Positions 38,875-41,625 of a stretch of DNA of 64,000 nucleotides are shown one piece after another. The position numbers and the translations under genes are program-made. This stretch comes from Micromonospora echinospora (GTDB lineage Bacteria; Actinomycetota; Actinomycetes; Mycobacteriales; Micromonosporaceae), in NCBI RefSeq assembly GCF_014203425.1, contig NZ_JACHJC010000001.1:6651501-6715500 (forward strand), read 5' to 3'. Every line of letters begins with the position of its first letter. The stretch's first letter is position 1. The notes under the pieces were generated by a model. The model was not told the origin of the DNA. It made no database searches and saw only the letters and a list, made by a program, of their open reading frames with translations.

Positions 38875-39002
38875 TCGGCACCTGCTCACACGGCGTATCT
38901 GGCTGCCATCGTTGGTGGTCGGTTCACGACGTTTGACGCTGTCTTGTGCCCCCTGTGTGCCCCACCGGCCGGTGAGTTCCCCCCGCTTTGATGGAGCGGT
39001 GG

Positions 39003-39248
39003 TTACCTGCTGCCGGCTGGTGCAGGGGTGGCGATAGGTGGCTCGGCTGGCTCGGTTCGGTGGCTGTGCCAGGCGGTCTCGTACTCGTTTGGGCTGAGGT
39101 AGCCCAGTTCCTTCTGGATGCGGCGGGTGTTGTACCAGCCGTCGATGTAGGCGAAGATCGCGTTCTCGGCCTCGTCACGGGTCCGCCATGAGGTGCGGTA
39201 GACGAGTTCGATCTTCAACGTCGACCAGAAGTTCTCCATCAGCGCGTT
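39003..39248 (-). pseudogene. IS3 transposase OrfB, severed C-terminal part
   Basis: Codons NALMENFWSTLKIELV through to the SPNEYETAW end of an IS3-type integrase core. It holds the third catalytic residue (Glu in MENFW), while the two Asp residues are in the other piece at 40570-41250. Separation is due to the IS110 insertion, so neither part can be active. Confidence 0.88.
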
Positions 39249-39262
39249 GACGCTCCTATAGC

Positions 39263-39268
39263 TGTCAA
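39263..39268 (-). promoter_or_regulatory. Consensus -35 box in the IS110 right end
   Basis: TTGACA on the transposase strand, overlapping the transposase stop, 13 bases from the IS end. When the ends join in a circle it would lie 17 bases from GAGACT in the left end, forming the junction promoter known for IS110 elements. Confidence 0.55.
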
Positions 39269-40335
39269 GTGGCGATGGTGGTCGTGCGGAGAGGGCGGAG
39301 CAGGGCCCAGATCTCGCGGGCGAGGAGTCGTTTCAGGCAGCGGATGATCTCAGCTTTGGTCTTGCCGTCTGCGGTGCGGCGGGCGACGTAGGCGCGGGTG
39401 GGTTCGTGGTGTTGCATGCGGACGATGACGGCGCGGTAGAGGGCGGCGTTGGCTTGGCGGTGACCGCCGCGGTTGAGTCTGTGCCGGTTGGTCATGCCGG
39501 AGGAGGCGGGGATCGGTGCGACGCCGCAGAGCCTCGCCCAGGCGGGTTCTGAGCGGACCCGGTCGATGTTGTCGCCGGCGACGATGAGCATCTCGGCGGC
39601 GGTGTCGGCGCCGACGCCGAACGCGGCGACCAACTGCGGCACGAGCTGGCCGGTGAGCTCGACGAGTATCGCTTCGTGGGTTTTGATCTCGTCGTTGAGC
39701 TGTTGCCAGCGGCGGGCGATCGAGCGCAGGGTGTGTTTCGTTGCGGCGAGCACGGTGGTGACCGGACCGGGGCGCAGGCCGGCGCACCGTTCGATCAGGG
39801 CCATCTTCGACAAGGGCTGCAGAGGTTCACGTAGCTCGGGGCTGGCGGTGACCAGCACTGCCTTGAGGGTGATCATCGCGGCGGTGCGGGCCTTGACCGC
39901 GACGTCTTTGGCGACCTTGATCTGGCGGATCATCTCCACGATGCCGTCGTTGGTCTTCGGGACGCTGGTGGAGTTACCGGCCAGCACCGAGCGAGCGGCG
40001 TTCTCGGCGTCGAGGGTGTCGCTCTTGCCGCGTAGCCGACGGTCGCGGCGGTCGGTGCGCAGGACCTCGATGACTCCGAGGCCCCGTCGTCGGACAGCGG
40101 AGGTCAGTCCGGCGCCGTAGGAGCCGGTGCCCTCGATCGCGAAGATCAGCCTCTTCGCCTCGAAGCCGGCCGCCCAGTCGAGCAGCTGTTCATAGCCGCC
40201 TCGGTCGGCGGGGAATGAGCGGGCGTCGAGGCGGCCGCCGATGTCGTCCAGGGCGACGGCGACGTGGACGTGCTTGTGGGTGTCGACGCCGATGACGACT
40301 CGACGTCGACGCGGGTCGGGGCTCATGCTTGACAT
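39265..40335 (-). CDS. IS110 family transposase (DEDD recombinase)
   Basis: A 356-residue RuvC-like DEDD plus serine-domain recombinase. The N-terminus VVIGVDTHKHVHVAVALDD carries the first Asp, and the C-terminal transposase_20 domain contains GVAPIPASSGMTNRHRLNRG with the catalytic Ser in SSGM. Length is normal and the frame is intact, so it may be active. The upstream ATG at 40335 or the one three codons later could be the start. It is expected to work with an RNA from the 5' noncoding end. Confidence 0.93.
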   Translation of the reverse strand: MSSMSPDPRRRRVVIGVDTHKHVHVAVALDDIGGRLDARSFPADRGGYEQLLDWAAGFEAKRLIFAIEGTGSYGAGLTSAVRRRGLGVIEVLRTDRRDRRLRGKSDTLDAENAARSVLAGNSTSVPKTNDGIVEMIRQIKVAKDVAVKARTAAMITLKAVLVTASPELREPLQPLSKMALIERCAGLRPGPVTTVLAATKHTLRSIARRWQQLNDEIKTHEAILVELTGQLVPQLVAAFGVGADTAAEMLIVAGDNIDRVRSEPAWARLCGVAPIPASSGMTNRHRLNRGGHRQANAALYRAVIVRMQHHEPTRAYVARRTADGKTKAEIIRCLKRLLAREIWALLRPLRTTTIAT

Positions 40336-40569
40336 CGCGGGCTCCAGCTCAGACCAGGGCGACAGGGGTTCGTGACGCTGGCCGGCCGGGTGGACGGGAC
40401 TGTGACGGGACCTGCTGCGATCAGGCTCCTATGAGGTCACTGCCCGCCCGGCCAGCACCACTGGTGCTGCACCGCCAGGCAGACGACAGATCAACAGCAA
40501 GGACACCCGAACTGCGGGGTCAGTCGTAAGCAAGAGTCAGGCCGCCTGACGGCGCCTCAAAGTCTCACA
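40336..40569 (-). ncRNA. Candidate IS110 bridge RNA region
   Basis: The 234-base noncoding left end, on the transposase strand, folds into several stems: CGCC-GTCA-GGCG; CAGCACCA-G-TGGTGCTG; and GTGACCT paired with AGGT/GTCAC around a ~20-base loop. The first internal loop has an 8-base match, CAGTCGTA in plus sense (40521-40528), to the insertion flank (40568-40575). The GTGAC-stem loop has GCTCCTAT (40425-40432), also found in the right end (39252-39259). These are the target-guide and donor-guide features expected of a bridge RNA. Confidence 0.6.
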
Positions 40570-41250
40570 GTCGTAGGAGTCGCCGACGGATCCCATCAAG
40601 GGCAGGATCCCGTTGTCCTGTAAGCGTTCCGCGAAGCGAAACGACGTGTAGTTCGACCCGCGATCTGAGTGGTGGATCAACTGGCCGTCGCGGACGTCGC
40701 GCGACCAGATGCCGTATTCGAGGGCGGCGAGGATCAGGTCGGTGTCGCAGCGGTCGGAGGTCTTCCACCCAACGATCCGGCGGGAGAACGCATCGCGGAC
40801 CGCAGCCAACCAGAACACGCCCTCACCGCAGGGGATGCGGGTGGCGTCGGCGACCCAGAGCCGGTTCGGCCCGTCGGCGGTGAACTGCCGGTTGACCAGA
40901 TCCGGCGCCGGCGTGTGCCGGGGATCCTGGCGCGTGGAGCCGCCGCGCCAGCCTCGACGCAGAAACGCCCCCTGCCAGCCCTGCTGCGCCATCAACCGCT
41001 CGACCCGCTTACGGCCCACGCGGATGCCGTCACGGCGTAGCTGCCGGTGGACCCGGTCCGCGCCGTAGGTGCGCCCCGATGTCTCCCAGATCTCGTGGAT
41101 GTTGGAGACCAGACCCAGGTCGACCACGTCGCGGTCGCAGGGCTGCTCGACCTGCTTCACCCACGCGTAGTAGGTCGAGGCGCCGATGTTCAGGACCCGT
41201 AGCAGGAGCGCGACCGCGAACTGGTCACGGTGTTCGTGGATGAACCTCAT
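40537..41250 (-). pseudogene. IS3 transposase OrfB, N-terminal part
   Basis: HTH_21 region (YGADRVHRQLRRDGIRVGRKRVERLM broken here as YGADRVHRQLRRDGI and VGRKRVERLM) and the integrase core with both Asp residues (WVADATRI; HHSDRGSNY). After GDSYD the reading frame runs into IS110 sequence and stops at 40537. The ATG overlaps the orfA stop by four bases. Confidence 0.88.
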
Positions 41251-41558
41251 GACCGTCGCCGGGTCGGGTCGAGCTCCGCCGCGAAATACGCGCTCGCGGC
41301 CTTCAGGATCTCGTTCGCCCGCCGCAACTCGGCGACCTCCCTGCGCAGCCGGCGGTTCTCCTCCGCCATCTCGCTGGTCGGCCGGTCGTGACGCTCGTCG
41401 GCGTCGGCCTCGGCTTGGCGGATCCAGTTCCGCAACGCCTCGTGATGCACACCAAGCTGCTCGGCCAGGCGCCGGATCACCGGCTTCGGATCCGACTCGC
41501 GGTACAAACGCACAGCGCGCTGACGTAGCTCATCGGGGTACTTCTTCGGTGCTGCCAC
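41247..41558 (-). CDS. IS3 family transposase OrfA
   Basis: A 103-residue helix-turn-helix protein: PKKYPDELRQRAVRLYRES and KPVIRRLAEQLGVHHEALRN, followed by a leucine-zipper-like helix (EENRRLRREVAELRRANEIL). The GTG start at 41558 has GGAGGAAG 9 bases upstream. It is intact, but its partner OrfB is broken, so the element cannot transpose by itself. Confidence 0.88.
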   Translation of the reverse strand: MAAPKKYPDELRQRAVRLYRESDPKPVIRRLAEQLGVHHEALRNWIRQAEADADERHDRPTSEMAEENRRLRREVAELRRANEILKAASAYFAAELDPTRRRS

Positions 41559-41625
41559 GGACAACTTCCTCCCCACGGCCATCAGACCATGATCAAGAAG
41601 CTCCATGAAAGCAGGGGTAGCTCAT

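Follow-up and report, generated by a model that had tools for sequence, protein, structure and literature searches.

The bridge RNA (seekRNA) mechanism of IS110 elements is already known. For IS621, the available passages of Durrant et al. 2024 (PMC11208160) and Hiraizumi et al. 2024 (PMC11208158) describe a bridge RNA with two loops encoded in the left end (LE), a −35 motif in the right end (RE), left guides that pair with the bottom strand and right guides that pair with the top strand, a CT core in both donor and target, and a target in REP sequences. The seekRNA of ISEc21, an IS110-type element of Escherichia coli, has been proven: according to the available parts of Siddiquee et al. 2024 (PMC11187229), the RNA was recovered with the protein and sequenced, and the element does not move without it. 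ISEc21 is also the precedent for an IS110 element hitting IS3, its target HSD|QG (the bar marks the cut) containing the second Asp of the DDE triad. In our literature search, which did not cover supplements, ISEc21 was the only IS110 element reported to target IS3 genes, and no report was found of the D|NA target described here or of a wider targeting of transposase genes; the supplements of PMC11208160 and PMC11187229 may hold D|NA. The available passages of PMC12500396, which deals with an IS110 in Kocuria, give no target.

The window analysed here, a stretch of 64,000 nucleotides of Micromonospora echinospora DNA, contains what is in all probability an IS110-type element of this kind, with a bridge RNA encoded in its 5′ end and guides directed at GAY|AACGC of an IS3 transposase gene (Table 1). 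The location inside an IS3 transposase gene, proposed in the first-pass annotation, was borne out by Pfam, which places PF00665 on one side of the element and PF13333 on the other (PF13683, beside PF13333, falls just below its Pfam cut-off), and by an uninterrupted IS3 copy (L132). The recombinase combines, at the level of Pfam domains, the RuvC-like DEDD domain and the Tnp domain of the IS110 family (PF01548, E 4.9e-18; PF02371, E 1.2e-14), and its residues 237–347 match the sequences of IS621 and ISCro4 in the PDB; the 234-base noncoding stretch upstream of the recombinase gene assigns the element to the IS110 and not the IS1111 type. With ISEc21 it shares the targeting of an IS3 transposase gene, a right end of the form TTGAC...GTC, a 5′ noncoding RNA matched by the same covariance model (R1, see below) and a recombinase that is 44% identical. 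The target, though, is not that of the ISEc21 lineage: the window element cuts at D|NA, before the presumed catalytic Glu, all four guides differ, and the two elements belong to separate clades. The two-loop RNA in LE, the −35 motif in RE, the recombinase domains and the pairing of left guides with the bottom strand and right guides with the top strand are all as in the available passages on IS621. Unlike IS621 as described there, the element has a TC core in the donor and A[C/T] in the target, which sets it apart from the IS621 subgroup; its target is a coding motif, and its left donor guide is offset from the crossover.

Table 1. Positions in the window of the IS110 element, its host IS3 and the proposed guides and promoter motifs
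Feature	Position	Strand	Basis
Whole IS3::IS110 unit, IS3 outer ends TGAG...CTCA	38973..41624 (about)	−	three own-genome copies and L132
3′ part of IS3 orfB, starting AAC GCG (N A L M E)	39003..39248	−	PF13333, PF13683
IS110-family element, 1321 bp including the shared C at 39249 (1320 without)	39249..40569	−	empty-site comparison
Right end, TTGACA...ATAGGAGCGTC, with −35-like TTGACA at 39263-39268	39249..39268	−	48 distinct right ends
IS110 recombinase, 356 aa	39265..40335	−	PF01548 and PF02371
5′ noncoding end (LE) encoding the candidate bridge RNA	40336..40569	−	RNA model match 40369-40555 (the model includes the window's own RNA)
Right donor guide, 5′-UCACAGUC-3′	40398..40405	−	complement of left-end GAC|TGTGA
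Left donor guide, 5′-AUAGGAGC-3′	40425..40432	−	equals the right end
G, then AU, after the right target guide	40490-40492	−	match the element's right end
Right target guide, 5′-GCUGUU-3′	40493..40498	−	complementary to target AACGC, with one extra U
Left target guide, 5′-UUACGAC-3′	40523..40529	−	same sense as target top strand; covaries with left flank in 51 distinct pairs
Candidate −10, GAGACT (weak)	40561..40566	−	position only
IS3 host element: orfA 41247-41606 and 5′ part of orfB 40570-41250	40570..41606	−	Pfam

Two comparisons fixed the ends of the element, one with L132 and one with a Brevibacterium genome that has both a sibling element and empty sites for it. L132, which comes from another genome of the genus and is 99% identical over the matched part, reads GGCGACTCCTACGAC AACGCGCTGATG, giving TCCTACGAC AACGCG across the cut (TACGAC AACGCG), and the window boundaries read TACGAC|TGTGAG on the left and AGGAGCGTC|AACGCG on the right, with one C ambiguous. 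Brevibacterium sp. CS2 carries three empty copies of one IS3 (L196–L198), all reading TTCGAT|AACGCG, and a filled copy of the same IS3 (L044), in which the left boundary is TTCGAT|TGTCAG and the right boundary GCATC|AACGCG; no empty copy of this host IS3 turned up in a search of plasmids, and it was in the host genome itself that such copies were found. Comparison of these empty and filled copies places the crossover between GAY and AAC, assigns the terminal C to the element and implies that the target is not duplicated. Empty sites without duplication are consistent with a circular intermediate and conservative excision. At the loci read, target bases are retained at the left ends and element bases at the right ends, as if the top-strand joint alone had been inherited, GA[C/T] on the left being partly a product of how the loci were selected. 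The encoded IS3 transposase is split at GDSYD|NALME, and the Glu four codons past the cut is taken to be the catalytic Glu of the DDE triad. Five exact TACGACAACGC sites in the window's own genome are intact and therefore empty; by translation, none of the five lies in an IS3 gene.

Two repeats quoted in the first-pass annotation are indeed found where it put them, CAGTCGTA at 40521-40528 and 40568-40575, and GCTCCTAT at 40425-40432 and 39252-39259. Its reading of TACGACTG as the match to the target holds for TACGAC, but not for the last two bases, which are the element's own first bases, since L132 reads TACGAC AACGCG. Likewise, its assignment of two loops had captured the left target guide and the left donor guide and missed the two right guides. 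The four guides listed in Table 1 were assigned by homology with IS621, as described in the available passages of PMC11208160 and PMC11208158. After each right guide stand bases that match the incoming partner: the G-AU following the right target guide matches the element end [A/G]TC, and G-UC in the right donor guide matches the target GAC, an arrangement similar to the handshake positions of IS621 in the same passages.

The donor guides are complementary to the joined ends, with few independent changes and with some mismatched left donor guides (L030, L057, L162). Subgroups differ in the pair formed by left end and right donor guide (TGTGA/UCACA versus TGTCA/UGACA) and in that formed by right end and left donor guide (AGGAGC/AGGAGC versus AGGGGC/AGGGGC), the latter with joint A/G changes in one subgroup; the corresponding donor pairs in ISEc21 are AGTAA/UUACU and AGAAGGGC/AGAAGGGC. 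These donor-guide changes amount to few independent events. Among 48 distinct right ends, the final 20 bases hardly vary, and TTGAC is present in 47, against 0.9 expected after shuffling, in a set whose search pattern favoured TTGAC with two mismatches allowed. A promoter formed across a circular junction had been proposed from TTGACA and GAGACT; the 17-base spacing between TTGACA (39268-39263, minus strand) and GAGACT (40566-40561, minus strand) across the junction stands, but GAGACT is a poor match to the −10 consensus.

The window's right target guide matches AACGC only with one extra U, whereas other subgroups have the AACGC-matching form. This could be expected if the RNA were a genuine bridge RNA and the element an inactive relic, the alternative that survives best, yet the 356-aa ORF is intact, the genome holds three identical copies, and a 95% identical relative is present in another genus of the Micromonosporaceae, all of which make a relic rather unlikely. 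The columns homologous to this guide predict the right flank in 17 relatives at other targets (see below).

Relatives were collected by keeping the best 80 of 105 confirmed loci, and the 64 with automatically readable ends were found by end patterns. The locus-finding pattern required GA[C/T], which consequently precedes the left end by construction, and it missed L097, where GTC is found at this position. Eight of the 64 loci were dropped before the flanks were counted, seven as duplicates (L031–L034, L078, L166, L169) and L179 as lying outside the clade; three others (L096, L163, L164) are damaged and have a wrong end-to-end distance, so that the two flanks may come from different copies. 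Right flanks start with Asn-Ala in 47 of 51 cases (exceptions L022, L039, L060 and L090), and five of the 53 left flanks (L029, L039, L040, L041, L054) do not look IS3-like by eye. Of the 53 left flanks, 44 are free of stops, and Pfam detected rve in 39 of these; of the 51 right flanks, 34 are free of stops, 31 of them with rve_2 or rve_3. The nine left and 17 right flanks with stops were judged by eye only. The consensus around the cut is HHSDxGSQYTS...GSVGDSYD|NALAE. In L022, L059 and L098, the right end runs straight into the beginning of a left end (TGTGAG or TGTCA), like a circle junction or a tandem copy in the chromosome. In the window's own genus, L102, L103 and G144 are partial relatives with 91–94% DNA identity over the matched part; L102 and L103 occupy the same IS3 site as the window element, and L102 has the left end CGTGAG, not TGTGAG. 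A 77%-identical relative is carried by the Mycobacterium avium mobilizable plasmid pMARIA (L161:1501-2813) at D|NA of an IS3-type gene, and no annotated feature lies under the match.

A shared site would say nothing about guided targeting if there had been one ancient insertion, after which the IS3::IS110 unit spread with the IS110 as a passenger. The own genome offers some grounds for this: the element is present in three copies identical over 1341 bases with flanks, which by themselves are thus not three independent tests, all three units (L213–L215) keep the IS3 outer ends, and L213 and L215 have equal IS3 halves save for one length difference near one outer end. Passenger spread may hold for two of these three copies. 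In L214, on the other hand, the IS3 halves differ from those of the window at 12 sites around an identical 1321-bp element, although gene conversion is possible. For the clade, the passenger explanation was rejected as highly improbable, on account of the own-genome copies, the diversity of the host left halves, which are 22–93% identical to that of the window (the 22% coming from L041, whose left flank is not IS3), the empty and filled copies of one IS3 in Brevibacterium, and the situation in Microbacterium lacus. There, five copies of one sibling element are identical where compared, and the three known right flanks (L026, L028, L035) belong to three different IS3 genes, all at NA..E. Insertion of the same loop sequence at unrelated targets, which would have spoken against guidance, was therefore not seen where it could be checked, the Microbacterium copies sharing one motif in their three IS3 genes.

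Folding of the 205-nt left end of the window element gave two arms with internal loops, with an energy that is unremarkable for the composition (z = −1.33; 20 of 200 shuffles equally stable). Joint folding of 51 distinct left ends with RNAalifold did not yield the two-loop fold because the subgroups differ in length, but 14 window-like sequences gave it. Among the latter, 96.9% of cells are paired, versus 93.6% after shuffling, and both-sided changes occur in 25 cells, versus 10.0 ± 2.7 (0/500 shuffles); in the outer stem of the first arm, both-sided changes affect 6 of 16 pairs. A structured RNA with two internal loops is thus conserved in relatives. The candidate RNA had no match in Rfam. 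The covariance model R1, built from 12 of the 14 window-like RNAs, gave a full-length match upstream of the recombinase in all 32 held-out loci, which were hand-picked from other subgroups and more distant relatives and include ISEc21; four E. coli loci, three annotated as ISEc21 and one as IS110, were matched with rough E-values of about 3e-5 to 5e-5. Among 30 sources other than the window, 29 have a match, eight of which were already among the 32, leaving 21 of 22 new ones, and L181 is the sole miss. At L087:2050-2204, the match is downstream, not upstream, of the recombinase gene. As the ISEc21 RNA is proven and is matched by R1, a bridge RNA is very probably what the homologous region in the window encodes. 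The proposal that the 5′ noncoding end is a bispecific bridge RNA thus gains support from the both-sided changes, from the model matches in every one of the 32 held-out loci and from guides that change along with their targets, and the covariance-model check suggested for 40336-40569 came out in its favour with our own model, which finds the RNA in held-out relatives.

By a rough estimate, the chance of an 8-mer spanning the boundary recurring within 234 bases is a few per cent; each 8-mer match is therefore weak by itself, and the case rests on the relatives. After 12 of 63 rows had been dropped as duplicates or for short flanks, 51 distinct pairs were available for comparing the left guide with its flank. 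At positions −7 to −1, 266 of 357 bases match, against 234.9 ± 4.9 in shuffled pairings, and when G-U pairs are counted the figures are 313 and 290.4 ± 3.3; in neither case did any of 4000 shuffles reach the observed value, in statistics that, like those for the right guide below, ignore relatedness among the elements. The expectation that the guide loop varies with the target among relatives is thereby upheld. Position −7 showed no covariation with the left guide in the 51 pairs. At position −1, a guide C is found with target C in 31 cases and with T in one, a guide A with C and T in one case each, and a guide U with C in 10 and T in seven, as U can pair with both through G-U pairing. The left guide follows departures from TACGAC in L052 (guide and target TGGGAT) and in L039 (both TGCGAC, at a non-IS3 site), and does so in part in L077 and L090, whereas the fit is poor in L024, L025, L041 and L161. 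On the right side, L040, with target AATGC, has GCATT (GGCATT at AATGCC) instead of GCGTT, and L053, L054 and L056 keep GCGTT despite the same target. Target guides read for the bottom strand on the left and for the top strand on the right therefore vary with the target. Natural redirection via changed guide bases is also described for ISMch6 in the available parts of PMC11187229, where it is a single relative of ISEc21 with a modified ISEc21-type target, unlike the clade found here.

Guides of more distant relatives were read by the columns of the RNA model, an earlier automatic motif readout having proved too noisy; after omission of L181 (no match), L171 and L183 (no right end) and L094 (misaligned), 26 of the 30 non-window sources remain. 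In 17 relatives with other targets, the right guide agrees with the flank at 82 of 102 positions, compared with 36.0 ± 5.8 after shuffling (0/20000), and at 77 of 96 when only the 16 distinct pairs are taken, again with no shuffle as good. The left guide, in the eight of these 17 with a readable left flank, agrees at 38 of 48 positions versus 18.7 (1/20000). Transposase genes could be named as targets for several of the distant relatives, and not for L174, L175, L177, L178, L185 and L087. L082 and L170 lie at TNGKV|ERFHR of an rve gene, presumably IS481-like by its motif; L182 at VREN|QTIVIEDL of TnpB (PF01385, PF07282); L172, and likewise L176 by similarity, at YSG|KHKRHG of an IS5-like gene (PF13613, PF13359); and L180 in a gene with a weak HTH_Tnp_4 match under Pfam's cut-off. 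The target of L173 resembles that of L180 and has no Pfam match, nor does that of L179, RYD|KLAV, which we take to be in an IS5-like gene from the motif. All six in-frame target classes, D|NA and HSD|QG included, are cut at a codon boundary. This is likely due to the base before the cut being mostly C, which equals the terminal C of the donor and is common at third positions; C is frequent there in GC-rich genes.

One lineage, defined by the left end AGAGA, departs from this pattern. It comprises nine loci (L184 and L186–L193, with L192 counted in for its AGAGA left end) in genomes of the window's family, and its left guide matches the flank at 52 of 54 bases, whereas the right guide matches at 20 of 54 versus 17.1 ± 2.5, a value reached by chance (4117/20000 as high). 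L192 has a different right guide, which fits at 6 of 6 positions, while the other eight reach 14 of 48 versus 14.4. The lineage thus seems to use the left guide only. In a tree of 90 recombinases, 54 D|NA elements, some so labelled from one flank only, fall into one group of 57 rows (support 100/99), the other three rows being L039, L051 and L059. The HSD|QG (ISEc21) elements form a separate group of seven (100/100), and lineages with other targets lie between the two groups, L082 and L170 adjoining the D|NA group (98/96). This separation suggests that IS3 targeting either arose twice or was kept and re-aimed.

Recognition of the IS3 motif by the recombinase without any RNA, the noncoding end being a leader and the repeats a product of chance, would accord with the weakness of each single 8-base repeat and with the unremarkable folding energy, but it is scarcely credible given that guides vary with the target (L052, L039, L040), that none of the 4000 shuffles for the left guide or of the 20000 for the right was as good, and that stems change on both sides.

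In favour of a guided IS110 element, the sequences directly show where it sits and where it ends, that the target is not duplicated, that the two-loop fold is conserved and that the guides covary with target and ends. On this basis, the element would excise as a circle whose joined ends form a promoter, and the RNA made from this junction promoter would bind the recombinase. One loop would pair with the circle junction, its left donor guide binding the right end of the element and its right donor guide the left end. The second loop would recognise GAY|AACGC in the IS3 gene by pairing its left guide to the bottom strand and its right guide to the top one. The element would then be inserted, with no duplication, by recombination between the Asp codon and the Asn codon. 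The guided codons owe their conservation to their place next to the catalytic Glu of IS3 transposases, and for this reason very many IS3 copies are possible landing sites.

Taken more widely, a broad group of IS110 elements probably hunts other mobile elements by means of a bridge RNA that spells conserved transposase codons, often beside catalytic residues, and has switched targets repeatedly by changes in the guides. The sites concerned would be D|NA and HSD|QG in IS3, NGKV|ERF in IS481-like rve genes, YSG|KHK and RYD|KLA in IS5-like genes and REN|QTI in TnpB, with cuts at codon boundaries in all six. These elements constitute a naturally replicated test of the guide rules of bridge RNAs, with dozens of elements whose target, ends and guides are readable, including relatives with a changed target that represent natural retargeting. 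Reprogramming of IS110 recombinases may profit from the guide/target pairs, from the fact that donor and target cores are not identical, and from the lineage with its apparent reliance on the left guide alone. For the biology of the family, the lineage would exploit what is conserved in the protein of a rival transposase as an address in DNA, and can thereby land in and break many kinds of IS3.
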